In this document: piece by piece, positions 23,717 through 53,042 of the stretch | How positions within the stretch are numbered: the first letter of the stretch is position 1 | Layout: the number at the start of each line of letters is the position of its first letter | Source: Syntrophobacteraceae bacterium | GTDB taxonomy: Bacteria; Desulfobacterota; Syntrophobacteria; Syntrophobacterales; Syntrophobacteraceae | Reading direction: 5' to 3' | NCBI GenBank assembly: GCA_025453975.1 | Contig: JALOPI010000008.1 | Span: 1 to 64,000 of the forward strand | DNA length: 64,000 nt | Position numbers and translations under genes: made by a program | Notes under the pieces: generated by a model | Told to the model about the DNA's origin: nothing | Seen by the model: the letters and a program-made list of their open reading frames with translations, nothing else | The model's database searches: none

Positions 23717-23722
23717 ACATCC

Positions 23723-25936: not shown

Positions 25937-26088
25937 GAGGAGCCCCCGGGTCTGTGATCGGCCGGCGGGGACTTCTGGCGGCTCGGGGCTCGGGCCTCGA
26001 TCTGCCGCCTGCCCGTCGGATTCATGGGCCCGGGGCTCAGGCAGGATCCTATGGACTGATTTGATCCCCCTCAGGAGGAGGCATTGGG

Positions 26089-27572: not shown

Positions 27573-28874
27573 TTGAGTGAGCCCAGAATCGCCTACGTGC
27601 TGCACTGGTTTCCCGAGCCATCCGAGACCTTCATCTTCAATGAGGTCCGTCACCTTCACGGTCGGGGCCTGGACCTGAGGGTGCTGACGCTCTATGGCGA
27701 GATCAGGGGAAATCCGTCGACGGAAATGACTTCCGCCGGGCTTGAGGTGGAAAGGCTCGGCTTGGGGCTCATTCCCAAGGCTCCCGAGGCGCTTGGCTTC
27801 TGGCGGCGCCGGAACCCCGCCATGTTTCGCGACCTGGCCCGCACCGTGCCGCTCCGGCGCTGGAGCGACCTGGAGATGGCGGGAGAGAATCTCTGGGCTT
27901 TTCTATGCGGCTTCGAGGTGGCTCGGCGCTGTGAGGAGGAGGGGATCGAGCACATCCACGCCCCGTGGGCCAACGGTCCGGCGACGGCGGCCTGGGTGGC
28001 GTCTCGCCTGACGGGGATTCCCTTCAGCTTCGCGGCCCACGCCACGGACATTTATCCACCGGACGGGGCTCTGGCCGAAAAGATATCAGCGGCTTCCTTC
28101 GTGCGTACCGAGAACCGGGCCAATGTGGAGCATCTCCGGGCTCATGCGGCGACGGATCGGGACCGGCAAAAGATCCGTCTGGTCTACAGCGGCCATCCCA
28201 TTCGGGCGAGGGCTCCGGCGGCGGTGCCCATGAAGCCTCCCTTCCGGCTGATGGCGCTGGGGCGGTTCGTCCGCAAAAAGGGGTTCGACGTTCTCCTCGA
28301 GGCCTGCCATCTTCTGGAGAGTCGGGGCATTGCCTGGGAGCTGACCCTGGGGGGCGAGGGTCCCCTGGGGCATCGTTTGCGGACCCTTGCCCGCAGGCTC
28401 GATCTGGACCACCGCGTTCACTTCCCGGGCTTCGTGCCCTACGAAGGCGTCCCCGGGCTCCTGAGCGGTGCGGATGTCTTCATCATGCCGAGCGTCGTCG
28501 ATCCCTCGGGGGATCGGGACGGTCTTCCCAACGTCATCGTGGAGGCACTCATGCAGAGGATTCCCGTGGTGGCCTCCGACGTCTGCGGGATATCCGAGGT
28601 GATCCGCCATGGCATCACGGGAGTGCTGGTACCCCCGGGGGATTCCGCGGCCCTGGCCGACGGGGTGGCGTCCCTGATTGGGGACCGGGGGGGGGCGATC
28701 GGCATGGCCGAGGCGGGACGCAGCCTGGCGACGGAGCTGTTCCACCCGGAGCGATGCTTTGGGGCGGTGCGGGAGCTTCTGCTGGGGGCCCTTCCGGCTT
28801 CGGGGTCTCGGGACATGACCGGGGGGCGAGAAGCGCCGCCGGCGACGCCCTGGTTGGCGGGCTCCCATGAGTGA
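27573..28874 (+). CDS. Glycosyltransferase, GT4-like
   Basis: SEPRIAYVLHWFPEPSETFIFNEV, MALGRFVRKKGFDVLLEA, VFIMPSVVDPSGDRDGLPNVIVEAL; start could be ATG 27534. Confidence 0.88.
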   Translation: MSEPRIAYVLHWFPEPSETFIFNEVRHLHGRGLDLRVLTLYGEIRGNPSTEMTSAGLEVERLGLGLIPKAPEALGFWRRRNPAMFRDLARTVPLRRWSDLEMAGENLWAFLCGFEVARRCEEEGIEHIHAPWANGPATAAWVASRLTGIPFSFAAHATDIYPPDGALAEKISAASFVRTENRANVEHLRAHAATDRDRQKIRLVYSGHPIRARAPAAVPMKPPFRLMALGRFVRKKGFDVLLEACHLLESRGIAWELTLGGEGPLGHRLRTLARRLDLDHRVHFPGFVPYEGVPGLLSGADVFIMPSVVDPSGDRDGLPNVIVEALMQRIPVVASDVCGISEVIRHGITGVLVPPGDSAALADGVASLIGDRGGAIGMAEAGRSLATELFHPERCFGAVRELLLGALPASGSRDMTGGREAPPATPWLAGSHE

Positions 28875-30303
28875 AGCTTCCCATGGCATTCTCCGCAGGT
28901 TTGCCTACCTTCTGGGGGCCCAGTGGCTGCGGGAGGTCCTGCAGAGCGCTTTTTTCATCCTCCTGGCCAGAACCAGCACGACGACCTACGGGGAATTCAT
29001 GCTGGCCTTCAGCATTGCCCAGGTGGTCGTCTTCGTGGCGGAGTTTGGACTGAACCAGCACCTGGTGACGCTTCTGGCGGGGCACCAGGACGAAAAGGCC
29101 GACCTGCTGGCGGAGGTGTCCATCCTCAAGGGAGGCCTGCTCCTGCTGGGGCTGGCCGCGGCCCAGGGGTTCGCGCACTGGCAGGACTACGCACCTTCCC
29201 TCAGGGTGCTCATCCTCGTGGTGGTGGCGGGCGTCGGGTTCCAGGCGCTGACGACGTCGTTTTACGTGGCCTGCCAGGTGGAGGGTCGACAGCACGTGGA
29301 GGCCAGGATCCGCTCGCTGTCGGCCTCCCTCGGGCTCGGCTGGGGCCTCGCCTCCCTCCTTGCGGGGCTGGCGCCGGTCTGGGTGGCCTGCTATCTGGCC
29401 ATTGAAACCTTCACGGGGCTGAGCATCGCCGTGGTCGAGACCCTGGCCCGGGCCCCGTCGGCCTGGAAGCGCCCGAGGATGGGGCGCCTGCTGAGCCGGG
29501 GACGGGGAGGCATCGTTTTTGTCCTCATGGCGCTGGCGGCCATCCTGTACAACAAGAGCAACATCTTCTTCCTCCAGCGCTTTGGCGGACCCGATGGAGT
29601 GGCGCAGTACAGCGTGACCTGGCAGATGGTGGACGGGATCTCGGTCCTCACCTCCAATCTCCTGCTGAAGAACGTTCTCTTTCCGCTCTTCGTGAATCTG
29701 AGCCGCGACGACTCCCGCGAGCTGGCCACCGTGGCGCGGAATTGCGGCCGCTGGCTCCTCCTCGCCTCCCTCCCCATCATGTTCGTGCTCCACGTGGAGG
29801 CTGACCGGCTCATCGGGATCATCTACGGCGGCGACTACGCACCGGCGATCCAGCTCCAGAAGCTCCTGGTGGCCACGGTGCTCTTCTCCTTTCTTCACAA
29901 CCTGGCGGCCTACCTGATGATGGCCATGGGGCTGGAGCGGCTGCTCCTCAAATTCTACCTGGCTGGATTGGCATTCAATCTGGTGGTGTGCACGGCTCTC
30001 ATCCCGAGATTTCCGCTGGAAGGTGCGGCCGTCGCCATCGTGGCCACCAAGGGGCTCATGGCCCTCCTCACGACGGGCTACTGCCATCGCCACTTGGGCC
30101 TGATCACGGGGGAGACGTGGGCTCAGGCCCTCCTCGCGGTGGCGGCTGGCGCGGCGCTGTACGCTCTGGGAGCCTCCGCGCTTTTCCGAGAAGCGGGGGA
30201 GATCCTGGCACTGATCCCCGTGGCCGTCCTGGCGCTCCTGTGGTATCGCGCGCCGAGGCCAAGGGCTGTTGAAATGGAATTCCGGCGAGATCCAGCTGAA
30301 TGA
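28867..30303 (+). CDS. Polysaccharide flippase/oligosaccharide transporter-like membrane protein (MOP superfamily)
   Basis: Multi-TM protein beginning LRRFAYLLGAQWLREVLQSAFFILLARTSTTTYGEFMLAFS; overlaps the preceding glycosyltransferase by 8 nt. Confidence 0.85.
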   Translation: MSEASHGILRRFAYLLGAQWLREVLQSAFFILLARTSTTTYGEFMLAFSIAQVVVFVAEFGLNQHLVTLLAGHQDEKADLLAEVSILKGGLLLLGLAAAQGFAHWQDYAPSLRVLILVVVAGVGFQALTTSFYVACQVEGRQHVEARIRSLSASLGLGWGLASLLAGLAPVWVACYLAIETFTGLSIAVVETLARAPSAWKRPRMGRLLSRGRGGIVFVLMALAAILYNKSNIFFLQRFGGPDGVAQYSVTWQMVDGISVLTSNLLLKNVLFPLFVNLSRDDSRELATVARNCGRWLLLASLPIMFVLHVEADRLIGIIYGGDYAPAIQLQKLLVATVLFSFLHNLAAYLMMAMGLERLLLKFYLAGLAFNLVVCTALIPRFPLEGAAVAIVATKGLMALLTTGYCHRHLGLITGETWAQALLAVAAGAALYALGASALFREAGEILALIPVAVLALLWYRAPRPRAVEMEFRRDPAE

Positions 30304-34007: not shown

Positions 34008-35225
34008 TCAATAGCCCATGAGCCCGCAGCAGCGCGAGCAGACGGGCATGAGCCCCTCCGTGGACAGGCTTTTCCGGAAGCGGCGGTAGGCCGGAGCGTT
34101 CCAGAGCTCGGTGATGGTCGCTTCCTTGACGTTGCCCACCACGTAGTCGTGGTAGTCGCGGCAGGGGGACAGGTCGCCGTTGCTGTCCACCTCCACGGCC
34201 TGATAAATGGAAATGCACTGGCCGAAACCGAACCGGTTCCGGTGATCCGTGTAGTAGGATTCGAGAGCCCTGGCGCCGCGGATGTGGGGAATGAAGATGA
34301 CGGGAGGGCTGCCCCGGGAGGCGGACCGGCGTTGAAGCTCCTGGATCTGCCCGTCCAGCGCATGGTAGTCGTCGGGCTTCCAGCTGCCCACCCACCCCCG
34401 GTGCAGGCGGGGCTGGAACCCGAAGCGGCGCCTGAAGTCGGTTTCGTGGGCCGACGCGCCGGCGGCGTCGATCCACCAGGAGAGATAGAAGACGAAGAGA
34501 TCCACCCGGTCCCGAAACGTTTCGTGGATGTCCACCAGGTGATGGTGATTGAGCTGTGAGATCACGGTGAGGGAAGCGATGAGGGGAAGTCTTCGGCCGC
34601 GCGCCGCGCGCTCGCCGTTCACGGCCTCGAGGGCGGATTCGATGCTCGAGAAGTTGTCGCCGTCCCTCCCGGCGCTGGGGCGCGCCGCATTGTGAGACTC
34701 GGGACTGTGCCCGTCGATGGAAAGCTGCAGCAGAAAAAGAGGCGCCTCCACCAGGCGGCCCGCCTCGGCGGCCAGGAAGGATCCGTTGCTGACGATGGAG
34801 GTTCCGAGCCCCAGGGATGTCGCTTTTTCGATGAGATCCACCGTACCGGGGTAGAGCATCGGCTCGCCCCCCCAGATGTAGACCAGCGGCGCATGCCCGT
34901 GGGCGACCAGGTCTTCGAGAAGCTCGGCGTACCTGGCGGGAGGCACCTCCTGGGCCTTCAGCTCCTTCATGCTCCTGCCGTGAAGGTAGCCCCCTTCACC
35001 CCATTGGCCGCAGGTCGCGCAGCGGAGATTGCATAGATCCGTGATGCGGATACTGAGCTGACGGATGCCGTGAGCCCGACCCTCCGCGTGGTCGGGGTAG
35101 AGGTGGTTGAAGAGCCACTTCTCCAGCTGAAGCCGGGCCAGCTTCAAGCCGGTGCCCGGCTGATCCAGCAAGCGCGGGAGAAGCCTGAGGATCGCCTGGT
35201 GAGCGATCATGACCCTTTTGGACAT
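34008..35225 (-). CDS. Radical SAM / SPASM-domain protein
   Basis: ITDLCNLRCATCGQWGEGG; YIWGGEPMLYP; C-terminal Cys set (CRDYHDYVVGNVKE, CSRCCG). Confidence 0.88.
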   Translation of the reverse strand: MSKRVMIAHQAILRLLPRLLDQPGTGLKLARLQLEKWLFNHLYPDHAEGRAHGIRQLSIRITDLCNLRCATCGQWGEGGYLHGRSMKELKAQEVPPARYAELLEDLVAHGHAPLVYIWGGEPMLYPGTVDLIEKATSLGLGTSIVSNGSFLAAEAGRLVEAPLFLLQLSIDGHSPESHNAARPSAGRDGDNFSSIESALEAVNGERAARGRRLPLIASLTVISQLNHHHLVDIHETFRDRVDLFVFYLSWWIDAAGASAHETDFRRRFGFQPRLHRGWVGSWKPDDYHALDGQIQELQRRSASRGSPPVIFIPHIRGARALESYYTDHRNRFGFGQCISIYQAVEVDSNGDLSPCRDYHDYVVGNVKEATITELWNAPAYRRFRKSLSTEGLMPVCSRCCGLMGY

Positions 35226-35459
35226 GCGGATGGTCCTTCTCGGTGCGGCTTGACAGCCAAAGCCCTTGTGTGAAAGAGTCTCGATCCCCCGGCTGACGCG
35301 GCGGAAGCCTGAAGCGCGAGGAGTCCCCCGCTTGCCGACGGGCATTTGAGGTCGTATACCACCAGACGGCGGCTAAATCCAATCCTTGGAGAAGGGTGCC
35401 CCTGGCCGCGGCCTGTCTTCATTGGTCGGAGCCCGGGTTTGGCCGAAGGAGTGTATCCC

Positions 35460-36689
35460 ATGCGGGCCCTGGTCTATCGCAAGTCCATCCCTCTCTACCT
35501 GCTGAACCGGTGGATGAGCCTTCTGAATCCACGGGCCTTCCATCCCGCCCTCTCCCCGCTGAGACTCCAGGAGGTACCTTTCGCGCCCAGAAAAGGGTGG
35601 GTGGTGCTCAGGAACCGGCTCTGCGGCATCTGCGGCTCGGATCTGGGGCTTCTGAGGGGGACGGAATCCGTCCTTTTGGAGCCGTATGCTTCATTTCCCG
35701 CCATCATCGGCCACGAAATGGTTTCGGAGGTGGTCGAAGCCCCCGTGGATTCGGGCTTCCACCCTGGCGATCGCGTGGTGGTGGAGCCTTTGCTGCCGTG
35801 CAGGGCCAGGGGCGTGCCTCCATGCCGATTCTGCCGGGAGGGGAGCTACAATCTTTGCGAGAGCACGACCCTGGGTGACCTCCTCCCCGGTCAGATGGGC
35901 TTCAGCCGGAGCTGCGGTGGAGGAATGGCTGAATTCACCTCCGCGCCGGCGGAGAACCTCTTCAAGATTCCGGAGAAGGTTCCGGACGAGGACGCCGTGC
36001 TGGCCGATTCGGTGGCCTCCGCGCTCCAGCCCGTCCTGGACCATTTCCCCGAGGACGGGCACACGGTGGTGGTGTACGGTGCGGGCAGCGTGGGACAGCA
36101 CATCCTGCGGTGCCTCAGGATGCTGGGCTCCCGAGCCAGACTGCTGGCCGTGGCGAGGCATCCTTACCAGCGGGAGCTGGCGCTGGCCGGCGGTGCGGAC
36201 ATCGTTCTCATGAATCCGGTGCGATCCGAGCTGGGCGCGGCAGCCGGCGCCCGCCTGCTGCCCACGACCCTCGGGGGTGGAAACCTGGAAGGGGGTGCCG
36301 ACCTCTTCCTGGATTGCGTCGGGAGCTCCCATTCGTTCCAGGAGGGGCTCATCGCGCTGCGGGGACGAGGTACCTACGTCATGGTCGGAACGGCGGGGAC
36401 CCTTCGCTGGGCGGATGTCTCCAGCCTCTGGCTCCGTGAGCTCAGGGTCACCGGTTCCATGGCCTATGGGCACGGCATGCATCGCGGGGAGCGGGTCAGG
36501 ACCTATGAGCTGGCGTTGGGGCTGCTCGGTCGCGGGGATTATCCCGTTGGCGGCCTGCTCACGCATGTCTTCCCCATCGAGGAATACGGCAGGGCCTTCA
36601 AGGCCGCCGTGGACAAAAAGCGCTTTCAGACCGTCAAGGTGGCCCTGGATCCGAGGAAGGAGCCCCCTTCATCGGATACCCTGGCATGA
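35460..36689 (+). CDS. Zinc-dependent alcohol dehydrogenase-like (MDR) protein
   Basis: LCGICGSDLGLLRG, IGHEMVSEVVE, VVYGAGSVGQHILRCLRMLG. Confidence 0.88.
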   Translation: MRALVYRKSIPLYLLNRWMSLLNPRAFHPALSPLRLQEVPFAPRKGWVVLRNRLCGICGSDLGLLRGTESVLLEPYASFPAIIGHEMVSEVVEAPVDSGFHPGDRVVVEPLLPCRARGVPPCRFCREGSYNLCESTTLGDLLPGQMGFSRSCGGGMAEFTSAPAENLFKIPEKVPDEDAVLADSVASALQPVLDHFPEDGHTVVVYGAGSVGQHILRCLRMLGSRARLLAVARHPYQRELALAGGADIVLMNPVRSELGAAAGARLLPTTLGGGNLEGGADLFLDCVGSSHSFQEGLIALRGRGTYVMVGTAGTLRWADVSSLWLRELRVTGSMAYGHGMHRGERVRTYELALGLLGRGDYPVGGLLTHVFPIEEYGRAFKAAVDKKRFQTVKVALDPRKEPPSSDTLA

Positions 36690-40082: not shown

Positions 40083-41534
40083 TCAGGCTTTCTTCCGGCC
40101 ATGCGCTGTCCATAGATAAGAGAAGAAGTTTCTGGCGCCCTGCAGTTTTCGATACAAATCCGATGGGCTTCGAGTGGAAAGGAGGAACGTCAACATATAG
40201 CCTGGACGCAGATAGAAGCGCTTGAGCCCTCGGTCAACGGCATCGTCTACGGCGCTCTTTTCGAGACCGGGGCAACTGACAACCGGAGTCTGCTCGCCGT
40301 CGTTCAGCCACTCGTCCCACCTGCATTCCTCAATAAGCCCATCGGCGAGGCAACGATCATAGTAGGACGTCCCGGGAAAAGGAACAGCCGCTGAAAACTG
40401 GACCGTCTGGAGACCAAGGTCAAGAGAGTGCTGAATGGTCCTCTGCATGCTCTGAAGCGTCTCTCCGGGCACTCCCAGAACAAAGCACCCATGCACGTCG
40501 AGCCTGGCTTCCCTGGCAAGCTCCATGAACCGTCTGGAGTCTTCGGTGGTCCTCCCTTTGCGCATGCGGTTCAGCATGCCCTCGTCTCCCGATTCGAAAC
40601 CCACCAGAAGCTGACGGCATCCTGCTCTCTTGAGCGCGGTGAACAATTCCTTGTCCGCGGTGTCGGTACGGGCATTGACGGAAAAAGAAACCTTGAGCCC
40701 GCGCCTAAGGATTTCCTCACAGATCCGCATGGCGTTGGATTTGACGAGGGTGAAGGTGTCGTCCTCAAAAAAAAACTCTCCTTCGCGCAAAGTTGGGCAC
40801 AGCGCAAGGTCGTATTCCATCTCGTCCACCACATTATGGGGCGAGCGCAGTCTCACTCGATGCCCGTGCATGACTTGGGGCCACAGGCAGAAGGTACATC
40901 GGTGGGGGCACCCCCTGCCGGAAAAGATGTCGACATGAGGGTAGAGCTTCGATCCGTCGAAATACTTCATCAGGTCGAGCTGGTGCCAAGCGGGAAAGGG
41001 CAGGTTGTCGAGATCCTCGATGAGAGGGCGTGGACTGGTGCGGATCACCCCGTCATGGCTTGGGAGAGCGATTCCCGCGACGGAGCCGACATCGTGATAG
41101 TTGGAGACGACATCCATGACCGTGAGATCGTATTCTCCAATGCAGATGACATCCAGGGCTCCGCCGGCGATTCGAAAGGTGTCCTCGGGAAGTGCTGACG
41201 CGTGAGGGCCGACCATGATGGTCCGCGCCTGGCTTTCTTCCTTGCAAAGCCTTGCGCAATCGATGTCGGAATAAATGGAGGGTGTTGTCGAGTCCAGGAC
41301 CACGAAGTCGGGCTGCTCCCGTCTCACCAGCGCCTTGAGATGACTTTTGTCCCAGCCCGCCGCGGGAAAGTCGAATAGCTTGGCTTCGAAGCCGGCCCTT
41401 TCGAGAACCGCCGTGGCATACGCCAGCCAGTCCGGAGCCCGAAGTGCACGGCCTCTGGTGCGGGCGGCCCATCTCTGGGCTCGGTTAAAGCCCTTGACAA
41501 ACGGTGCATTTATGATGAGAACCTTCAATCCCAT
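40083..41534 (-). CDS. B12-binding-domain radical SAM protein
   Basis: N-terminal Rossmann-like B12 region (IMVGPHASALPEDTFR...DVICIGEYD), CxxxCxxC as FSGRGCPHRCTFCLWPQ, FEDDTFTL, GFESGDEGMLNRMRKG. Confidence 0.92.
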   Translation of the reverse strand: MGLKVLIINAPFVKGFNRAQRWAARTRGRALRAPDWLAYATAVLERAGFEAKLFDFPAAGWDKSHLKALVRREQPDFVVLDSTTPSIYSDIDCARLCKEESQARTIMVGPHASALPEDTFRIAGGALDVICIGEYDLTVMDVVSNYHDVGSVAGIALPSHDGVIRTSPRPLIEDLDNLPFPAWHQLDLMKYFDGSKLYPHVDIFSGRGCPHRCTFCLWPQVMHGHRVRLRSPHNVVDEMEYDLALCPTLREGEFFFEDDTFTLVKSNAMRICEEILRRGLKVSFSVNARTDTADKELFTALKRAGCRQLLVGFESGDEGMLNRMRKGRTTEDSRRFMELAREARLDVHGCFVLGVPGETLQSMQRTIQHSLDLGLQTVQFSAAVPFPGTSYYDRCLADGLIEECRWDEWLNDGEQTPVVSCPGLEKSAVDDAVDRGLKRFYLRPGYMLTFLLSTRSPSDLYRKLQGARNFFSYLWTAHGRKKA

Positions 41535-41936: not shown

Positions 41937-42752
41937 TTGGCTCGCGCGATGAATGAAAGTATGGGGACTTCCCCTGCCCTGGATGTGATGCAAGCCGCTC
42001 GACTATGGCCTGTTTGGCTTAGGATCGGCCTGCAGGATACTCGGATGAGGTACCGACGCTCCCTTCTGGGGATCGGCTGGATATTCCTGAATCTGCTCAT
42101 CATGATCTTCAGCATAGGATTTATCTACAGCAGACTTTTTGGCCAGGATGTCAAAGAGTTCATCCCATTTCTGACCATAGGCTTAATCACCTGGAACCAT
42201 ATTGTTTCGGGTGTATTGGAAGGGGGTAATGCCTTCATCGTTTCCGAAGGCTATATCAAACAGATCGGCCTTCCTCACTATGTGTACGTCTTTCGCTTCT
42301 TTACAAGCATAACGATCAATCTCTTGATCAGCTTGCCTTGCTATTTCATCATAGCACTTTTTTATGGTGTCCCCTTTGGGATCGGTGTGCTCTGGGCTGT
42401 TCCAGGACTGATGTTGCTTTGCTCTAGCTCTTTCCTGATGATCGCCATTTTTTCGCATCTCAACGCCCGTTTTCGGGATGTGGGCCATATCGCGGGCGTT
42501 GCGCTGCAGGTGCTATTCTTCCTCACCCCGATCATGTGGCCTTTCGAGATGTTGAAAGCTCACAAGATCGAGTGGATTGCCTTGATGAATCCCTTCTTCC
42601 ACATGATCGAGGTAGTCAGGAGTCCTCTTCTCAAATCTTTGGCGGCCTCCCCGACCAGCTATCTGGTGGCCGCGGTATGGCTGTTATTCCTCGGCTCCTT
42701 GGCTTGGCTGGTCACGAGGTGTTTCGGTCAACGCATTCCGTATCTGCTTTGA
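41937..42752 (+). CDS. ABC-2-type polysaccharide export permease (Wzm-like)
   Basis: RYRRSLLGIGWIFLNLLIMIFSIGFIYSRLFGQD ... FLTPIMWPFEML ... LMNPFFHMIEVVRSPLL. Confidence 0.92.
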   Translation: MARAMNESMGTSPALDVMQAARLWPVWLRIGLQDTRMRYRRSLLGIGWIFLNLLIMIFSIGFIYSRLFGQDVKEFIPFLTIGLITWNHIVSGVLEGGNAFIVSEGYIKQIGLPHYVYVFRFFTSITINLLISLPCYFIIALFYGVPFGIGVLWAVPGLMLLCSSSFLMIAIFSHLNARFRDVGHIAGVALQVLFFLTPIMWPFEMLKAHKIEWIALMNPFFHMIEVVRSPLLKSLAASPTSYLVAAVWLLFLGSLAWLVTRCFGQRIPYLL

Positions 42753-42769: not shown

Positions 42770-43510
42770 ATGGCTCTCATCAGTTTGAAAAACGTGGCTG
42801 TCCAGTTTCGAGTGGATGCCGAAAATGGCAAGACGCTCAAATCCACCGCCGCGCAGCTCTTCATGCGTCGGCGGACGACCCCGCGGATCATCCATGCGCT
42901 CCGTTCTGTCTCCCTGGACATTGAAAGCGGAGAGAGGGTGGGGATTATTGGGGCCAACGGCGCGGGAAAGAGCACTCTCCTGAAAGTCATGGCCAGGATT
43001 TACCGGCCTCACTCGGGGGAGGCCTCCATCCATGGCCATGTTTGTCCTCTTTTCGAATTCGTGACCGGGTTCGAAATGGATGCCAATGGCTGGGACAACA
43101 TTCGGACCCGGGCGTTGCTCCTGGGAATGTCCGCCGCCGAGATCGACCAAAAAATCCATGAGATCGCCGCCTTCACTCACCTGGACGAGTTCCTCGATTA
43201 TCCCGTTCGCTGTTATTCCTCGGGAATGCTCTTGAGGTTGGCCTTTGCCGCGTCCACCGCCGTCGATCCGGAGATCCTGCTGTTGGATGAGGTTGTTGCG
43301 GCGGGCGATGCGGCATTCATGGAGCAGGCGAAAAGGCGCATGGACGAACTGCTGCTTCGAGCGAATATCGTGGTTTTTGTTTCGCACAGCCTTTCCTTGG
43401 TTGAGAGCCTGTGTGATCGAGTCATCTGGCTGGACCGTGGAACGGTCATGTTCGACGGTCCATGCCGGGAGGCGATTCCTGCCTATGAGAGGCACGCGTC
43501 GGGCGGTTGA
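42770..43510 (+). CDS. Polysaccharide ABC exporter ATPase (Wzt/KpsT-like, short form)
   Basis: GIIGANGAGKSTLLKVMARIYRPHSG, YSSGMLLRLAFAASTAVDPEILLLDEVVAAGD; no C-terminal carbohydrate-binding extension. Confidence 0.94.
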   Translation: MALISLKNVAVQFRVDAENGKTLKSTAAQLFMRRRTTPRIIHALRSVSLDIESGERVGIIGANGAGKSTLLKVMARIYRPHSGEASIHGHVCPLFEFVTGFEMDANGWDNIRTRALLLGMSAAEIDQKIHEIAAFTHLDEFLDYPVRCYSSGMLLRLAFAASTAVDPEILLLDEVVAAGDAAFMEQAKRRMDELLLRANIVVFVSHSLSLVESLCDRVIWLDRGTVMFDGPCREAIPAYERHASGG

Positions 43511-43579: not shown

Positions 43580-44773
43580 TTGACGATGGACCCTGTGAAT
43601 CTCTTTGTGCCTTCCTTCAGGATCGAGGAGACTCTGGCCGAAATCCGTCAGTGTCTCGAAAAGGGCTGGACTGGCCTGGGTTACAAGACCGTGGACTTCG
43701 AGGAGGCCTGGAAAGATTACACGGGCTTGCCCCACGCGCATTTCGTGAATTCAGCCACCGCCGGTCTGCACCTGGCGGTCCGATTGCTGAAGGAGGAGCG
43801 CGGCTGGCAGGACGGTGATGAAATCATCACCACGCCCCTGACGTTCGTTTCCACCAATCATGCGATCCTTTACGAGAGCCTGCGCCCCGTCTTCGCGGAT
43901 GTGGACGATCACCTGTGCCTCGATCCGGCTTCGGTGGAATCACGCATTTCGGATCGTACCCGCGCCATCATGTTCGTGGGAATGGGCGGCAACACGGGTA
44001 GATTTCAAGACATCGTGGAAATCTGCGGCAGGCGCGGTCTGAGCTTGATACTGGATGCCGCTCACATGGCGGGAACCCGAATGAACGGGACTCATGTGGG
44101 CCCTGAATCGGACGTTTCCGTTTTCAGCTTCCAGGCGGTCAAGAACCTGCCGACAGCCGACTCCGGGATGGTCTGTTTTCGGGATGCCCGTCTGGATCAT
44201 GCGGTCCGCAAGTGGACATGGCTCGGGATCGATAAGGATACCTTCTCCCGGACCCATTCCAAGGGATCCTATAAGTGGCATTACGATGTCGTCCACGACG
44301 GCTTCAAGTACCATGGGAACTCCATCATGGCGGCCATGGGACTCGTTTCCCTGCGGTATCTCGAACAGGACAACGCGTATCGACGCCAGATCGCCGCCTG
44401 GTACGATGAGCGACTTGTGGAGGAGGAGAAGATTCGACGCGTGCCGGTGGCACCGGGATGCCTCTCCTCTCGACATCTATACCAAATCCTTGTGGATAAC
44501 CGGGATGAGGTTATCCTGGCTCTGAACGAGAGCCAGATCTACCCGGGCGTGCATTACCGGGACAATACACTTTACCAAATGTACCGCTATGCACGGGGAA
44601 CCTGCCCCAGGTCCATGTCCGCCGGTGGATGCATCATCTCCCTGCCGTTGCATCTCAGACTCACGTACGCCGATGTGCAGCGAGTCTGTACGTCGCTTCT
44701 GGATATCATTCGCCGCCGTGTCTCCCTTTCCAAGGAGTCGGACCATGCCGAAGCTCAGCATCCCTCCGATTGA
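43580..44773 (+). CDS. DegT/DnrJ/EryC1/StrS-family sugar aminotransferase
   Basis: HFVNSATAGLHLAVRLL, ITTPLTFVSTNHAIL, LILDAAHMAGTRMNG, FSFQAVKNLPTADSGMV. Confidence 0.93.
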   Translation: MTMDPVNLFVPSFRIEETLAEIRQCLEKGWTGLGYKTVDFEEAWKDYTGLPHAHFVNSATAGLHLAVRLLKEERGWQDGDEIITTPLTFVSTNHAILYESLRPVFADVDDHLCLDPASVESRISDRTRAIMFVGMGGNTGRFQDIVEICGRRGLSLILDAAHMAGTRMNGTHVGPESDVSVFSFQAVKNLPTADSGMVCFRDARLDHAVRKWTWLGIDKDTFSRTHSKGSYKWHYDVVHDGFKYHGNSIMAAMGLVSLRYLEQDNAYRRQIAAWYDERLVEEEKIRRVPVAPGCLSSRHLYQILVDNRDEVILALNESQIYPGVHYRDNTLYQMYRYARGTCPRSMSAGGCIISLPLHLRLTYADVQRVCTSLLDIIRRRVSLSKESDHAEAQHPSD

Positions 44774-45266
44774 AGGAGAACGGATCGTTCTGCGCCTCCT
44801 GGAGGAGGCGGATCTGGACATGACTTTGCGCTGGCGCAACCAGGACCATATCCGAAAGTGGTTCAAGAGCTCGGCGGTCATATCCCCTTCGCGGCATCGG
44901 GCTTGGTTCGAGAGCTATCGTGAGCGCGATGACGACTATGTCTTCATCATCGAGGAGCGGCGGGATCTGTTCAAGCCGGTGGGGCAGGTTTCACTGTATC
45001 GGATCGACTGGGTCAAACGGTGTGCCGAATTCGGAAGACTGATGATCGGGGAGCCTGAAGCATTGATGAAGGGTATCGCCAAGGAGGCCACCAGGCTGTT
45101 GATGAGTTATGGTCTTGCGCAACTTGAGTTGATCAAGCTTGAATTGCAAGTCTATGATAATAACAAACCTGCTATCATGATTTATAGGTCGTGTGGATTC
45201 AAGGAAACTTCTTCTGATAATGACATGATATTGATGGAGGCCTTTAGGAACTGTGCTGTTGAGTGA
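44745..45266 (+). CDS. GNAT-family N-acetyltransferase
   Basis: GERIVLRLLEEADLDMTLRWRNQDHIRKWF ... LQVYDNNKPAIMIYRSCGFKE; start at ATG 44745 overlaps the DegT gene. Confidence 0.9.
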   Translation: MPKLSIPPIEGERIVLRLLEEADLDMTLRWRNQDHIRKWFKSSAVISPSRHRAWFESYRERDDDYVFIIEERRDLFKPVGQVSLYRIDWVKRCAEFGRLMIGEPEALMKGIAKEATRLLMSYGLAQLELIKLELQVYDNNKPAIMIYRSCGFKETSSDNDMILMEAFRNCAVE

Positions 45267-45528: not shown

Positions 45529-47478
45529 ATGACCATGGCCTCGCGCGATTCTGTACAGAATGTATCTTTTATCCTTGCGGTGATGGGGAGGTATTCCCGC
45601 ATCGCGCAGGCGCTTCAGAATAGCTTGACATGCATGGAGCCACTGATCCGGGATTCCGATTGTGACCTCGTCATCGCTTTCGAGAGCGACAGCTGGCTGG
45701 GGACCCCCTTGGCTCAGACGCTTCGCCTCCGTTTTCCCAAGGAGCGATTGACCGTGCTCGCCCGCGAATGTGGGAATCTTCCCGCCAAGCTCTACAACGA
45801 AGCAGCAAGATTCGGAACGAACCGATACCTTCATTTCCTTTGGCCCGGCTGTCGCCCCATAGCCGAACGGGTGGGAGCCACTTCTGCTCGGATGGATGAG
45901 TCCCATTTGGATTGGTCAGCGCACATCGACCCATTCATTCTGAGCCGATTGGGTGTCGATGCGGATTTCATTGCCAGATTTGGTAGCTACTTCATGTCCT
46001 GCAAGAGGTTGTTCTCTTCCGCCCAAGCGCTCTTGAGATCGGAGGTCTTCACTGAATTGGGGGGGTTCGATGCTTCACCGGTTCTTCAGCGTCACTTCGA
46101 TGTTGAGTTTTGGCTCAGGGTTCTGAAGGGGCAGGCCAAAATCCGACTCGATTCAGGGTATATCGCGGAGGAAGATTGGGCATGGCCAGTTTTTCCGCTA
46201 AGTCATGATCTGCGGATACCTCGATTTGTTGCCCAGAGCTTTGCGCTGCGAGCTTCAAGAGCTGCCAGCCAGAAAGGCCATGATGAGAAAATGTTGAGCG
46301 GATTCATACAAGACCTTCCCGTGAAGGAGGCGCAGCTGGTTGGTGAGCGTTGCTTTGCTGCTCACGGCCTTGCTTCCGAGCACTCCAACAGGCGGCGCTA
46401 CAAGATCGCGGTCACGGGAAATATATGGGATTATGTACATAATCGTCTGTGTTTTTACAATCACTTCGAGTATCTTGAAGGCAAGCAGCTTTTCACTTAT
46501 GTGCCTCTTCAGGATTCCTTAATTGATCCTGAGATTGATTTATGTGGGATCGACGCCGTGATCATCTCGAGAGGTAGAATTGATAACACCCTAAGAATAC
46601 TTGATTACTGTCAATTGCAGCGGATCCCTGCCATCTATATGATCGATGACAATTGGCTGACAATCGGTCAAGATTGGCCTGAGATCTATTCATCTTCATT
46701 TTCACCAGGCAAGTCGGCTTACAGTGTTTTTATTGAATGCCTTAAGAGATGTGATTCCGTACTGGTCTATAATGATATACTGGCGGAAGATGTGGAGCCA
46801 TATGTTAAGGATCTCATCAAGCTTCCCGTTAACGTTCGAATGGATGATTTTCGGGGGGGGATTCGGGACGAAGAGTGTTTAAAGCTCGTCGCCGATCTGA
46901 ATAAGTGGCGAGAGAAGACCCAGGGGCTGATTCTTGGATATGCGGGCTCGGTGCGCTATTCCGACGCTCCCTTCAGAGCGCTTGCTTCCGCGGTCGAGGA
47001 GCATACGAAAGACACGAAAGTGATCTTCTTCGGGTTTGTGACCGATGCCCAAAGAAACGCCTTTCGTCATAAGCCCATAACATTACCATACATGTCGTAT
47101 GAGGACTATGCGGCGGTTATGGGTGCGCTGCGCCCGGATATTCTCATTGCTCCGCTGGATCCTAGCAGGACGTCCATGTCCAAGTGTCCGAACAAGTATC
47201 TGGAGTATTCTGCGGCAGGCTCGGCCGGGATATACAGCAGTGTCTATCCTTACACCGATGTGATCGAGGATGGCCAGAATGGGCTGCTCGTCTCGAGCTC
47301 GGATGAGGCAGGCTGGAAGGCTGCCATTCAGCGCTTGCTGCTGGATGACGACTTGCGGCGGTGTCTTTCCGCGAATGCAGCAAGGGCCGTTGCGCTGCAG
47401 TATGATACGGCGGTGGTGGCACCATTGTTTGCCGAAGCCCTTTTAGGGCTTCTGGAAAGAGGGGCTTCCAGGGGATGA
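45529..47478 (+). CDS. Large two-part glycosyltransferase (N-terminal GT2-like, C-terminal GT4-like)
   Basis: N-terminal ALLRSEVFTELGGFD...FDVEFWLRVLKG; C-terminal IPAIYMIDDNWLT, SKCPNKYLEYSAAGSAGIYS, VIEDGQNGLLV. Confidence 0.78.
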   Translation: MTMASRDSVQNVSFILAVMGRYSRIAQALQNSLTCMEPLIRDSDCDLVIAFESDSWLGTPLAQTLRLRFPKERLTVLARECGNLPAKLYNEAARFGTNRYLHFLWPGCRPIAERVGATSARMDESHLDWSAHIDPFILSRLGVDADFIARFGSYFMSCKRLFSSAQALLRSEVFTELGGFDASPVLQRHFDVEFWLRVLKGQAKIRLDSGYIAEEDWAWPVFPLSHDLRIPRFVAQSFALRASRAASQKGHDEKMLSGFIQDLPVKEAQLVGERCFAAHGLASEHSNRRRYKIAVTGNIWDYVHNRLCFYNHFEYLEGKQLFTYVPLQDSLIDPEIDLCGIDAVIISRGRIDNTLRILDYCQLQRIPAIYMIDDNWLTIGQDWPEIYSSSFSPGKSAYSVFIECLKRCDSVLVYNDILAEDVEPYVKDLIKLPVNVRMDDFRGGIRDEECLKLVADLNKWREKTQGLILGYAGSVRYSDAPFRALASAVEEHTKDTKVIFFGFVTDAQRNAFRHKPITLPYMSYEDYAAVMGALRPDILIAPLDPSRTSMSKCPNKYLEYSAAGSAGIYSSVYPYTDVIEDGQNGLLVSSSDEAGWKAAIQRLLLDDDLRRCLSANAARAVALQYDTAVVAPLFAEALLGLLERGASRG

Positions 47479-49133
47479 TTCGCGTTGCATTGGTCTCGCA
47501 CTCCCCGGATCTAGGGGGGGGGGAGCGGATGCTGCTCAATGCGGGTCTGCTCATCCGGGAAATCGATGACATGGATGCGGTGCTATTTATACCTGGGAAT
47601 GGTAGGATGCGTGATATTGCCAGCAGTATGGGCATGAATCACGTTCTCATCCCTTCTTATCCTTGGCATGTCTTTAATCCTCTAAATGATTATCAAAGTT
47701 ACAGTCGCTCGCTTTATGTTTTAAGAAATAGTATAATTAATCAAGTTTGTGATATTGTAATTATTAATACTCTCACCTCTTATGTTCCAATAATGGTTTG
47801 TGTTGAATTGGGATTGCCATCTGTTTTGTGGATTCATGGTATTATTGATTGTGGTATGATAAGAGATAGGAATGAGCTTTTGTGTTCCACGTACGATCGT
47901 CTTGTTCTTAATTCCGCTTCTGCTGTTATTTATAATTCTTTTTGGACAAGTGAATTTTATAATAAACAGTTGAACTATAGAAATGGATCTATTGTTTATA
48001 ACTGGACGATGATGCAGGATGATACAAAACTGAGCCATGGTGTGTATGATAATCGTATATTTGTTTGCCTCAATACCTTTAATGAGATCAAAGGGCATTC
48101 TGTCTTGATAGACGCTGTACGGATTCTTGCACGCAAGACGAGGGAATTCCGTCTTGAATTGTATGGGGATGGTCCAGATATTGATGTGGTGCGCCAGCAA
48201 GTGAGCACAAATCACCTCGAAGATATTGTTCAATTTAAGGGATATACTGACAATGTCCATGAGGTATACGATCAGTCTTTATGTCTCATCAATCCTTCGT
48301 ATGTGGAGGCTTTTGGCATGACCCTCATCGAGGCATTGTCGCGGAAGACTCCAGTCATTGCCGCACGGGGTGGAGGGCCCGAGGAAATCGTTCAGGATGG
48401 TATCAATGGCTATCTGTTCGAAGCTGGGAACGCCGAAATGCTTGCCGGGCGGATGTCCGAATTCTTGGATAATCCGCAGATAGCCCGACAGATGGGTGAG
48501 AGAGGTTGTCAATTGGTTCGTGAAAAATTCTCTCCGGAGCGGGCTCGCGATGCCTTCACTCAAATCGTCCGGGGGACCCTGGCTGGATTTTCGGGTTATG
48601 ATGAGCGCGTCAGGCTGCTGGTCGATATGCATCTGAATCTCTCTTGCACCGACAGGCCCCGCGTTCATGGGGATTTCCATGATAAAGCTGATGACCGGTC
48701 AATTCACAGGGTGGTTGAATCCACCTCGCCTCCTGTCAGCTGTCTACGGGTGCGTGGCAGTGTGGTCTATGAATTCATTGCCGCGTATCCCTGTTGGCGG
48801 GGTCTGGACCTCATGGTTGGCACATATAAGCAGAGTGTCAGGGGGAAGATGATCGTAAGGGTGTTTTCAGCAAACGGCGGGCAGTGCCGTGAGGTTTCTT
48901 TAAACCTTGCCACGATGACGGACAATGGCTGGGTTGCCGTCCATTTTCTTCCCATAAGCAATTCATCGCAGCAGGTATTTAGAGTGTTGCTTTTGTTGGA
49001 ATTGGAGGATGCAAGGTCAGCGGTCGGTGTATATGAAGCTAATCCTCCAGAGAGAATGATGCATCGAATTCAACGCTTGCTTGGAATGAGAAAAGCGGGA
49101 AATGAGCTCTATTGCAGGGCGTATTATGGTTAA
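47475..49133 (+). CDS. Glycosyltransferase, GT4, with C-terminal accessory domain
   Basis: IRVALVSHSPDLGGGERMLLNAG, VEAFGMTLIEALSRKTPVIAARGGGPEEIV; about 170 aa C-terminal non-GT region. Confidence 0.92.
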   Translation: MIRVALVSHSPDLGGGERMLLNAGLLIREIDDMDAVLFIPGNGRMRDIASSMGMNHVLIPSYPWHVFNPLNDYQSYSRSLYVLRNSIINQVCDIVIINTLTSYVPIMVCVELGLPSVLWIHGIIDCGMIRDRNELLCSTYDRLVLNSASAVIYNSFWTSEFYNKQLNYRNGSIVYNWTMMQDDTKLSHGVYDNRIFVCLNTFNEIKGHSVLIDAVRILARKTREFRLELYGDGPDIDVVRQQVSTNHLEDIVQFKGYTDNVHEVYDQSLCLINPSYVEAFGMTLIEALSRKTPVIAARGGGPEEIVQDGINGYLFEAGNAEMLAGRMSEFLDNPQIARQMGERGCQLVREKFSPERARDAFTQIVRGTLAGFSGYDERVRLLVDMHLNLSCTDRPRVHGDFHDKADDRSIHRVVESTSPPVSCLRVRGSVVYEFIAAYPCWRGLDLMVGTYKQSVRGKMIVRVFSANGGQCREVSLNLATMTDNGWVAVHFLPISNSSQQVFRVLLLLELEDARSAVGVYEANPPERMMHRIQRLLGMRKAGNELYCRAYYG

Positions 49134-49180: not shown

Positions 49181-51697
49181 ATGTTATCATTCTTTTTTCC
49201 AAGAACTATTGGAATTGAGCTTGTTCGTGGCTGTAATTTCAGCTGCAAGATGTGTCCCGTCACCCACCACAACTCCGGGATGGTGACCAATAAGATTCAG
49301 CACATCTCTCTGGATCTGCTGGCCATGCTGGTGGATGAAGCGGACCGTTGGCCGAGTGTGGAGACGGTTTGGGCATTTCATTTCGGCGAGCCGCTTCTGC
49401 ATCCCTACTACACCGACTGCCTTGAGATGCTGCACAAGTCCGCGGTGATCAGGCAGGCTCAAGTCATACAGCATACCAACGGGTCTCTGCTGAAAGGGGA
49501 TAAGGCCAGGGCGATTCTCGAAATCCCCGTGATCAAGAAGCTAGTCTTTTCGTTTGATGGCTTCGGGGATAGAAGTAGCTACGAGGTGCTGAGGGGACCA
49601 CATTTTGAGAACACCCTGGAGAACATCCGGCAATTTGCTGAGGATGCACGAAGAGTCAGGCCAGAGCTGATGCTCTCCACTTGCACTATCGTGCCGCGCC
49701 AAGGCGAGGTGCCGGGCCTGGATGTACCCTCAAGGCATGAGGTGCTGACTCGTTTGCATGGATTATTTGATCCGATGGGTGTTGAGGTCGTGGTTCGTGA
49801 CATGCACGCCTACTGTGGTGCTGACGAGCTCGAAATCAGGGGGCATCCAGCGAAGCAGGTTTTTGGGGGCTGTTCCTTCGTGGAGGAAGATTCCCTTTAC
49901 ATGACGGTGAACGGGTGGGCGCAGCCCTGTTGCGCGGTCTATTCGGAAACCTTCCGGGTGGGGCGTTTCCCAGACCAGTCGTTTGGCGAGCTGCTGAACG
50001 GCAAGGAAATGAGGACCATCAGGCACGCGCTCAGGATGGACCTGCGTGCGATACTGGATTTCTGCTCCGGGTGCTCGCTTTCCATGGGGGGAATCATGGA
50101 GGGGGAAGTGCTTCGAGCCTACTGGAAGGCCCGGGACGCTCAGGGGGGAATGCTGGAGGTCGCGGAGCGACGTCACCTGTTCGAGGCGGGATGTCTGGCG
50201 GATCAACCGGTGCGGGTGGATCTGGGGTGTGGCGGTGCAAAGCCTGGGGGCTTCATTGGCATCGATCGATATCCACTGAATGGGGTGGATATTGTGGCTG
50301 ATCTCGACAAAGCGCTCCCGCTGGCCGACGACTCCGTGGATTTGGTGTTGGCCAGCCATTCCCTCGAGCACGTCGGGGACCTGCTGAAAACCATGGAGGA
50401 GATCCATCGGGTATGCAGGCATGGTGCTCAGGTGTGCATCGTGGCGCCGTATCATCAGCAGCATCTGAATCTTGCAAACCCTTACCATCGACAGGTATTC
50501 AACGAGCATACCCCACGTTTTTGGACCAGCAGTCGGTGGGCCCGCGTGGATGTCGCTGAGTTTGCGCACCCACACGCCGAGGGCTGGGGGTTGGGAGAAA
50601 GTGACCACAGCCGTCCAGCCATGGACTTGAGATGCCTTCGGATGGAGCTTTTCTACTTCCCCGAATATCGGCGCCTGGGAATGGAGGAGCGGCGAAGGTC
50701 CAGGCTATCCCACCTGAATGTCTGTGACCAGATCATGTATCACTTGGTGGTCGTCAAGGAACGAACGAGCGAGGCGGAGATGGAGGAGATTGCCGACAGG
50801 GTGGAGTATTTCGAGCCGCCCTATGTGACCATCCGTAGGCTGCGGGAGCGCTGCGAGCAGTTGGAGATGGCTTGTGCCGACAAGCTGATGGAAGCGAAGC
50901 GGCTTTTGGAATCGGTGCAGTTTCCGGTGGAGGAAGCCCCGCGCCTGCGTGGCTCTCTGGTCGAGCTTGAGCAGCTTCAAGGCGACCTGGATAGCCATCT
51001 GGTCCGGAAGGTTTCGGAGTGGAAGCGCCTCGAGGACCGGGTCAGGGCCACGGAGGCTGAGCTGGCCTCGATGGGGGAGCGGACGGTGGAAGTCGAGTCT
51101 CGTTGTGAAAGGTGTGTCGCTCAGCTTTCAAGGGTTGAGGGCAAGGCACTCTCTCTCGCGGATGAACTGCGCATGTTTCGCGACCGGAAGCTCACAGTCT
51201 GGTTCAATCGCTTCTTCGACAGAACCGACCTCAGGGCAGCAATCGCCCCGGCGTTTCGTCAACTGCTGGATGACAGCTACATCTTCGGTGGCAGCCTGAA
51301 GCGCTTTAGACTGCAGCCGAGCATCGACCTCGGGCTGACCCCTTTCGTCTCCTATCACCTGGATACCGGCGGTCGGCGGCTTCAAGGGATCATGCTGGCT
51401 GTTCTCCCGGACATGCCGGCCAAGGGAGGGCTCATTGGAATCGAGATCGTGTCCTCGAGAAACAGCATCCTGATGCAGCAAACCCTGGCGCTGGAAGATG
51501 TCGATGAAGCGAGCCCAGCGCGGTTTTCGTTTCCCCTGCTGCCGGGCTCGGAGCAGACGGGATGTGCTCTGAGGGTTTTTGTCCGGGACGCCGAATGGCC
51601 CGTCAGGATTCTGGAATGGAGACGCTACCGGGCGTTCGGTCTGGGCCCCCTCAAGACGAGGCCTTTCTGCGGCTTTGACCTTGGGCAGGCTCCTTGA
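49181..51697 (+). CDS. Radical SAM/SPASM - class I methyltransferase - coiled-coil - C-terminal beta-rich domain fusion
   Basis: GCNFSCKMCPVTHH, FHFGEPLLHP, SPASM-like CSFVEED...QPCCAVY...CSGC; MTase VRVDLGCGGAKPGGFIGIDRYP...VDLVLASHSLEHV; heptad-like region; C-terminal IGIEIVSSRNSILMQQTLAL. Confidence 0.86.
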   Translation: MLSFFFPRTIGIELVRGCNFSCKMCPVTHHNSGMVTNKIQHISLDLLAMLVDEADRWPSVETVWAFHFGEPLLHPYYTDCLEMLHKSAVIRQAQVIQHTNGSLLKGDKARAILEIPVIKKLVFSFDGFGDRSSYEVLRGPHFENTLENIRQFAEDARRVRPELMLSTCTIVPRQGEVPGLDVPSRHEVLTRLHGLFDPMGVEVVVRDMHAYCGADELEIRGHPAKQVFGGCSFVEEDSLYMTVNGWAQPCCAVYSETFRVGRFPDQSFGELLNGKEMRTIRHALRMDLRAILDFCSGCSLSMGGIMEGEVLRAYWKARDAQGGMLEVAERRHLFEAGCLADQPVRVDLGCGGAKPGGFIGIDRYPLNGVDIVADLDKALPLADDSVDLVLASHSLEHVGDLLKTMEEIHRVCRHGAQVCIVAPYHQQHLNLANPYHRQVFNEHTPRFWTSSRWARVDVAEFAHPHAEGWGLGESDHSRPAMDLRCLRMELFYFPEYRRLGMEERRRSRLSHLNVCDQIMYHLVVVKERTSEAEMEEIADRVEYFEPPYVTIRRLRERCEQLEMACADKLMEAKRLLESVQFPVEEAPRLRGSLVELEQLQGDLDSHLVRKVSEWKRLEDRVRATEAELASMGERTVEVESRCERCVAQLSRVEGKALSLADELRMFRDRKLTVWFNRFFDRTDLRAAIAPAFRQLLDDSYIFGGSLKRFRLQPSIDLGLTPFVSYHLDTGGRRLQGIMLAVLPDMPAKGGLIGIEIVSSRNSILMQQTLALEDVDEASPARFSFPLLPGSEQTGCALRVFVRDAEWPVRILEWRRYRAFGLGPLKTRPFCGFDLGQAP

Positions 51698-51710: not shown

Positions 51711-53042
51711 ATGGTTTCTCTTCCCCGCGTTTTAGCGGTGCTTCCCGGATTCGTGCCTTCTACCGAAATCTGTGTTGTCCGGCCATTCGTGAGCCTGCAT
51801 CGAGCAGGTCGCATCCTGGCCCGGGTGACCCTTGAGCGATTCGTGAGTCCTCGGGATCTGGCCTGGGCCAACCTGGTGGTCTTCTGCCGTAACACGGAGC
51901 CCAAGTTCTCATGGATCCTCGATCACCTGCTGGAAAGAGACCTCCCCTTCATTTACGACGTCGATGACAATCTCTTCAGCGTACCCGTGGATTCCGAGGT
52001 GGGAAGATATCACGCTTTACCCGCCTGCAGGGCCATGCTCGCTCGGTATCTCGAGGGGGCGCGGGCTGTGCGCGTCTATTCGAGCGAAATGGCTGACGCG
52101 GCGGAAGTGTTCAATCGGAGGGTCGCGAAAGTGCGAGCGCCCATTGATAGCAGGCTCATCGAGCCGCCCTCGAGTGCCCGCCATCCTCGGCCCGTCAGGA
52201 TCGTTTATGCCACTAGCCGCACCGAGGATCGGCTGGCTGCGGTCTTCATGCCAGCGGTTGTCGCCGTTCTGGAGGACTTTGGAGAATGCGCGGAGGTCCA
52301 TTTCTGGGGGGCCAGGCCACCGGCGTTCCCCTCAACGGTCCGCATCCATCATCATCCGGCCATCAGGAGTTACCATCGATTCCTGGGAGAGTTTTCCAGG
52401 ATGGGCTTCGACATCGGGTTGGCGCCACTGCTGGATGACCCGTTCCATCGAGCCAAAACGAACAACAAATTCAGGGAATATGGTGGATGTGGCATCGCTG
52501 GAATCTATTCTGATGTGTGTGTGTATTCCTCATGTGTCGAGGATGGGGTCACTGGATTGCTGGTCTCCAACGATCCCCTGTCCTGGTACGAGGCGCTGAA
52601 TCGACTCATCAGGGACGGTGCTTTGAGGCGAACTGTGGGAGCCAGGGCTCGAGAATACGTGCTGGCTCATTACTCCCGCGTCGACTTCGAGGATGAATGG
52701 CTGCGGCAGATCGTCGCCGTGGTGGAAGAACGTGGGGGCGGAGGGCTCCGCACGGACAGGCGTTTTTCCATGGCAGCCCGATCAGATTGTTCGATGCATG
52801 CCGGGACTTCAAGCGGTCTAGCTGAAAACGGGCAAGCCGGGGAGTCTTTGGAGCGAGAACAGCCCGTGTCGCCTTCCTGTGGTAGACAATGGCTCATGTT
52901 AGCCATGGGTCATTTCATTCAAAGATGGCATGATGTAAGTGATATCTGTAGAATGAGATTGTGTTGTAATGAAGCTTACGATGGTAAAGTGTATAGGTAT
53001 TTATATAATAGTTTGAAGTGGTATATTAGGCACAGTTGTTAG
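51711..53042 (+). CDS. Glycosyltransferase, GT4-like, YDVDDN-motif family
   Basis: LPFIYDVDDNLFSVP, KTNNKFREYGGCGIAGIYSDV, CVEDGVTGLLVSNDPLSW; start at ATG 51711. Confidence 0.82.
   Translation: MVSLPRVLAVLPGFVPSTEICVVRPFVSLHRAGRILARVTLERFVSPRDLAWANLVVFCRNTEPKFSWILDHLLERDLPFIYDVDDNLFSVPVDSEVGRYHALPACRAMLARYLEGARAVRVYSSEMADAAEVFNRRVAKVRAPIDSRLIEPPSSARHPRPVRIVYATSRTEDRLAAVFMPAVVAVLEDFGECAEVHFWGARPPAFPSTVRIHHHPAIRSYHRFLGEFSRMGFDIGLAPLLDDPFHRAKTNNKFREYGGCGIAGIYSDVCVYSSCVEDGVTGLLVSNDPLSWYEALNRLIRDGALRRTVGARAREYVLAHYSRVDFEDEWLRQIVAVVEERGGGGLRTDRRFSMAARSDCSMHAGTSSGLAENGQAGESLEREQPVSPSCGRQWLMLAMGHFIQRWHDVSDICRMRLCCNEAYDGKVYRYLYNSLKWYIRHSC

Follow-up and report, generated by a model that had tools for sequence, protein, structure and literature searches.

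The window analysed here is a stretch of 64,000 nucleotides from a Syntrophobacteraceae bacterium. On its forward strand a single unbroken open reading frame (ORF) runs from an ATG at position 49181 to a stop codon at 51697 and encodes an 838-aa four-part fusion protein, P0001. The modules follow one another in the order radical SAM, one-cluster SPASM/twitch, class I methyltransferase, coiled coil and C-terminal beta domain. The radical SAM and SPASM/twitch parts together occupy residues 1-320 (49181..50140) and are recognized by Pfam, profile search and Foldseek; the class I SAM methyltransferase occupies residues ~336-562 (50186..50866; Pfam and alignment) and the coiled-coil stalk residues ~551-672 (50831..51196; heptad test and model helices). 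The stalk is followed by a short helical segment seen by sequence comparison (51185..51286) and by a C-terminal tip domain (51293..51694), defined by hhalign, models and weak CBM-type fold matches. All of these features lie on the forward strand. Pfam places Radical_SAM at residues 12-154 (E 6.8e-13), SPASM at 231-298 (E 3e-07) and Methyltransf_11 at 371-419 (E 4.1e-09). The original prediction of one 838-aa ORF in four parts is thus borne out by the domain search it had called for, by the heptad test and by the strands and helices of the model. Structure prediction, which it also proposed, gave stalk helices and beta strands, but the full-length AlphaFold model is poor (mean pLDDT 52) and left the methyltransferase region unresolved, because the alignment there held only one relative.

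The genome is a draft of 118 contigs, and two genes could conceivably have been joined through an assembly or sequencing error. The probability of this is vanishingly small, as the same fusion, with the same module order, is found in a second genome (G237) of the same phylum and another class, where it is 58% identical over residues 5-567. Coding-type substitutions span the junction between the radical SAM and methyltransferase modules, where the two proteins differ by 0.41, 0.36 and 0.82 per first, second and third codon position; this third-position bias implies that the linker is translated and constrained in both genomes. The homolog and the codon-position pattern together rule out an artefact, and on this sequence evidence the P0001 fusion is genuine. 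The G237 protein has 773 to 802 aa (its start codon is unsettled) and is 60% identical to P0001 in the radical SAM module, 57% in the methyltransferase and 47% in the C-terminal domain.

P0001 is part of a surface-polysaccharide cluster on the same strand. About 6 kb upstream lie Wzm, an ABC-2 permease of the galactan-export type (41937..42752; domain and family profiles), and Wzt, an ATPase of 246 aa (42770..43510) that by profiles and a PF14524 search lacks a C-terminal carbohydrate-binding module (CBM). Wzt_C (PF14524) had no match in the whole genome, which is 88% complete; the control was positive in 2 of 14. The best NCBIfam match of both Wzm and Wzt is the Klebsiella O2a galactan exporter (RfbD/E), with scores well under the equivalog cut-offs. 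There follow, assigned by profiles, a DegT/PseC/ArnB-type sugar aminotransferase (43580..44773; 76% identical in G237 and 62% in Caloranaerobacter), a PseH-like GNAT N-acetyltransferase (44745..45266), a 649-aa glycosyltransferase (45529..47478; syntenic in Caloranaerobacter, at 37%) and a GT4 glycosyltransferase (47475..49133). Downstream, a glycosyltransferase-like protein (51711..53042) starts 13 bases past the P0001 stop, and G237 carries its homolog (47%) at the corresponding position.

Several other genes of the window are of note. A second radical SAM/SPASM protein (34008-35345, reverse strand; SPASM E 2e-14) and a zinc alcohol dehydrogenase (35463-36689, forward strand) are divergently arranged, with glycosyltransferase genes on either side; this resembles the gene pairs of aminocyclitol oxidation, and the two may form a further unit that oxidises sugars. 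A B12-binding radical SAM protein is encoded amid glycosyltransferases on the reverse strand (40083-41534), just ahead of Wzm. Since a Wzx-like flippase gene (28867-30303) is found ~12 kb upstream of Wzm/Wzt, two polysaccharide export routes may be encoded in the one region. Genes reading like QmoA/QmoB/QmoC, of the heterodisulfide-reductase type (22556-27270), suggest an anaerobic sulphate-metabolising host, which would suit oxygen-sensitive radical SAM chemistry.

The radical SAM module carries the predicted CxxxCxxC motif (C18/C22/C25) and the predicted SPASM-like cysteines, which are C231, C250 (with C251 adjacent), C295 and C298. These four conserved cysteine positions of the auxiliary domain fit one Fe-S cluster, short of the two present in a full SPASM domain. 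When the radical SAM profile was run against all solved structures (hmmsearch), BtrN was the sole match (E 8e-7); the alignment is gap-free across the auxiliary-cluster domain, and three of the four auxiliary cysteines align without gaps. Foldseek with the P0001 model, which is of low confidence, likewise gave BtrN as top fold (E 2e-8) and DesII as second. By profile and predicted fold the module is therefore nearest to BtrN, then to DesII, the similarity to BtrN being distant. BtrN is a 2-deoxy-scyllo-inosamine dehydrogenase and DesII acts on TDP-4-amino-4,6-dideoxyglucose, so that the substrates of both are sugars or cyclitols. BtrN resembles P0001 in being a radical SAM enzyme with one auxiliary cluster, and differs in being a stand-alone antibiotic enzyme with ~15% identity; DesII has no sequence-level match.

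SPASM maturases are mostly peptide enzymes, and the top NCBIfam scores of the module are for maturases, for example TIGR04317, all far under cut-off. An action on a protein or peptide, incidental to the cluster, is nonetheless very improbable: no precursor peptide was noticed nearby, there is one auxiliary cluster only, the nearest solved structure is BtrN, and in two genomes the module is fused to the methyltransferase of a glycan cluster. The best stand-alone radical SAM relative found (29%) is from Geomesophilobacter (L003:8852-10927), where it adjoins a methyltransferase gene; the two are neighbours, unfused, in a cluster that reads as one for a nonulosonic-acid (pse/leg-like) sugar.

In the methyltransferase module the motifs LGCG, FIGID, SHSLEH and NPYHxQVFNEHT are kept across phyla in the alignment. 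Its profile matches include glucose O-methyltransferase, over the common Rossmann part only, and no WbdD chain was matched in a profile search of the PDB at E 0.1. The coiled coil predicted to come after it is a stalk of strong heptad periodicity: residues 551-672 have a power of 123 against a shuffle mean of 11, none of 5000 shuffles reached as high, and the best hydrophobic period is 3.51. Of five control segments of the same length from P0001, four gave no signal; a weak one came from 489-610, a segment that extends into the coiled coil. The AlphaFold model has helices at 547-578 and 586-678. The segment after the stalk (RKLTVWFNRFF...) is conserved in both G237 proteins that bear this C-terminal part, and a similar W..x..F segment occurs in Caloranaerobacter; an amphipathic-helix test is suggestive, and a weak case can be made that it is an amphipathic/membrane or docking helix.

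The last ~110 residues of P0001 are modelled as beta strands in a beta sandwich (pLDDT 59). No Pfam family matches this domain and no fold match is significant; several CBMs are among the matches, all with E > 0.03 and from a weak model. The domain is common to P0001, the adjacent GT4 (residues ~417-552) and the giant glycosyltransferases of G237 (hhalign probability 91%, E 1e-6). In the GT4 it makes up the C-terminal ~135 residues (48723-49130) and, with no Pfam family, recurs across phyla in glycosyltransferases of such clusters; a separate family is warranted for it. Being common to neighbouring glycosyltransferases, the tip suggests a docking or glycan-binding tag, and a tag common to the synthesis enzymes of one cluster would most simply bind the growing glycan or a shared partner.

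The cluster is conserved beyond this genome. In G237 it is syntenic, comprising Wzm-Wzt-DegT-GNAT, giant glycosyltransferases, the fusion, a second methyltransferase, which is stalked, and the same glycosyltransferase downstream. The G237 fusion has only a 51-residue linker, in which no heptad signal was seen; the long coiled coil belongs instead to the adjoining second methyltransferase (L018:17906-19801). This protein of 631 aa has a methyltransferase of another kind, a heptad stalk that spans 231 residues, and a C-terminal domain of the P0001 type (49% identical). Compared with P0001, this protein is, by its sequence, a case of the catalytic head being swapped on a common stalk and tip. The Firmicute Caloranaerobacter azorensis has a 574-aa protein of methyltransferase, stalk and tip without radical SAM, in a cluster with DegT, GNAT, Wzm, Wzt and the same two glycosyltransferases, and no radical SAM relative was found anywhere in its genome. 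In a fourth genome (G582, Clostridia) a methyltransferase with a short stalk stands beside Wzm/Wzt, Wzm being read from sequence. The constant part in Firmicutes is the methyltransferase with the heptad stalk, at times with the tip. The co-occurrence with Wzm/Wzt that had been proposed as a check holds in all four of the clusters found with a P0001-type methyltransferase, in two phyla, and the same DegT and GNAT accompany them in three of the four. Identities range from 76% (DegT, G237) down to 29% (Wzm, G582) and 22% (GNAT, G582).

Whole-genome searches found this methyltransferase type at E < 1e-100 in 2 of 395 genomes of the phylum, with generic matches (E 1e-22 to 1e-26) in six further ones, and in 2 of 291 genomes of the class of Caloranaerobacter. 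The radical SAM part was present in the same 2 of the 395 genomes and never alone at E < 1e-25. The gene was absent from the other 55 of the 56 genomes searched in the class of the window, a scan of viral contigs gave no relatives, and a plasmid tblastn gave only weak, separate radical SAM or methyltransferase matches. The patchy occurrence and the range of identities fit a horizontally moving polysaccharide cluster. Its core looks like the coiled-coil methyltransferase of an ABC-exporter glycan cluster, with the radical SAM module an addition to an older stalked methyltransferase, because Caloranaerobacter has methyltransferase, coiled coil and tip in the same cluster and no radical SAM relative. 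The view that radical SAM is a new element accordingly stands, as a lineage-specific addition; the alternative is the reverse order, in which radical SAM was lost in Firmicutes.

The Caloranaerobacter cluster also bears on the stage at which the radical SAM module acts. The module might make a rare sugar at the nucleotide-sugar stage, in the manner of DesII or BtrN and together with DegT, the fusion merely coupling two tailoring steps; DesII, the second-best fold, has a nucleotide-linked 4-amino sugar as substrate, and the P0001 cluster has a DegT aminotransferase and a GNAT. This is distinctly unlikely, as in Caloranaerobacter DegT and GNAT exist without a radical SAM relative and so do not depend on one, and as the stalk and tip are of no obvious use to a nucleotide-sugar enzyme.

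The proposal tentatively favoured here is that P0001 is a bifunctional enzyme that caps or modifies a glycan in a Wzm/Wzt polysaccharide pathway, with stalk and tip holding it at the assembly site. Its substrate is very probably a glycan; the chances are about even that it caps or terminates chains rather than decorating every repeat, and there is an equal prospect that the radical step is a sugar oxidation or epimerisation. What the sequences show directly is that the four modules are present and how they are ordered, that the cluster is conserved and that the tip domain is shared; which substrate is used, in what order the reactions run, and that the protein terminates chains or acts as a ruler is what we infer. 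Held at the polysaccharide assembly site by stalk and tip, the BtrN-like module would abstract hydrogen from one of the sugars of a chain under construction, most probably that at the non-reducing end, and oxidise or epimerise this sugar, after which the methyltransferase would O-methylate the chain end. The coiled coil would keep the two catalytic sites at a distance from the C-terminal tip, and the tip could dock on the glycan or on those glycosyltransferases that bear this domain too. As in WbdD, a chain would be modified only once it had grown long enough to reach, whereby elongation would end and length be set.

A capping enzyme is favoured because P0001 has the geometry of characterised terminators, its pair of active sites being joined by a stalk to a tip that could dock at the polymerase; confidence is held back because Wzt has no CBM and the G237 stalk sits on the second methyltransferase. 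As the G237 fusion has no heptad stalk, a ruler function would not be universal for the radical SAM-methyltransferase fusion, and in that genome the pair may decorate repeats while the second, stalked methyltransferase measures length. Of the idea that the coiled coil sets chain length, the strong stalk in P0001 is in favour and the G237 fusion is not. The same observations lend themselves to a tethered decorating enzyme. Its catalytic pair would modify a sugar that is internal or belongs to the repeat unit, the coiled coil and tip would serve only for oligomerisation and for docking to the polymerase, and length would arise through synthesis-export coupling as in CBM-less galactan exporters. 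In favour are a Wzt that lacks a CBM and is nearest the galactan-export type, the missing heptad stalk of the G237 fusion, and a tip common to glycosyltransferases. This is rather unlikely given a stalk that is long and strongly periodic both here and in Caloranaerobacter, where it belongs to the sole stalked protein seen in the cluster. Returning to the capping enzyme, one carrier is a Firmicute, and the product therefore need not be LPS.

Radical SAM/SPASM genes occur in surface-polysaccharide clusters, and we know of no defined role for them in such assembly; here the covalent joining with a stalked methyltransferase next to Wzm/Wzt links radical SAM to a specific, testable step of glycan assembly. 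P0001 probably completes or decorates a chain of surface polysaccharide, whose length it may also determine; if so, a machine of a familiar type would be built from a new set of parts. If P0001 caps chains, terminator chemistry would be swappable and a glycan-recognition domain could shift from exporter to synthesis machinery. The full reading of a chain-terminating ruler, its cap made by radical SAM chemistry and methylation and its glycan-reading beta domain carried by terminator and glycosyltransferases instead of Wzt, is doubtful as a whole; were it true, length control and export would be wired unlike every characterised ABC-dependent pathway. No described radical SAM terminator was found in the open-licence literature, nor any match there to the combination of a BtrN-like radical SAM, a stalked methyltransferase, a tip common to glycosyltransferases and a CBM-less Wzt.

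Among known systems, the Klebsiella O2a galactan Wzm/Wzt (RfbD/E) is like this exporter in its Wzt without a C-terminal domain as well as in being the best NCBIfam match, and to our knowledge that system has no coiled-coil methyltransferase. In characterised ABC-dependent systems a coiled coil acts as ruler: it bears the terminator at its distal end, and its length determines that of the chain (PMC11231755, PMC5082667, PMC3482155). All characterised terminated O-polysaccharides depend on a Wzt whose carbohydrate-binding module recognises the cap (PMC11231755), unlike the Wzt of the P0001 cluster. WbdD (E. coli O9a/O8, Klebsiella O3/O5), the type of terminator originally suggested, shares with P0001 a methyltransferase, a long coiled coil, a C-terminal part and a place beside Wzm/Wzt, and the O8 WbdD is methyltransferase-only (PMC3482155). 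P0001 differs in having no kinase, no sequence kinship found, an extra radical SAM module and a beta-domain tip. Direct membership of the WbdD family is ruled out by the lack of sequence kinship, of a kinase and of a Wzt CBM, and what stands of the suggestion is the build and the Wzm/Wzt setting. The Klebsiella O7 ORF6 terminator likewise joins methyltransferase, coiled coil and an Ig-like, CBM-like domain in one chain, but it has a kinase-like domain, C-terminal polymerase glycosyltransferases and its CBM-like domain before the stalk (PMC11231755), whereas P0001 has its beta domain at the tip and radical SAM in place of the kinase. As a working model, a terminator/ruler of the WbdD kind serves best, and P0001 may be regarded as a variant of the coiled-coil terminators of ABC-exported glycans through likeness of build, not kinship.
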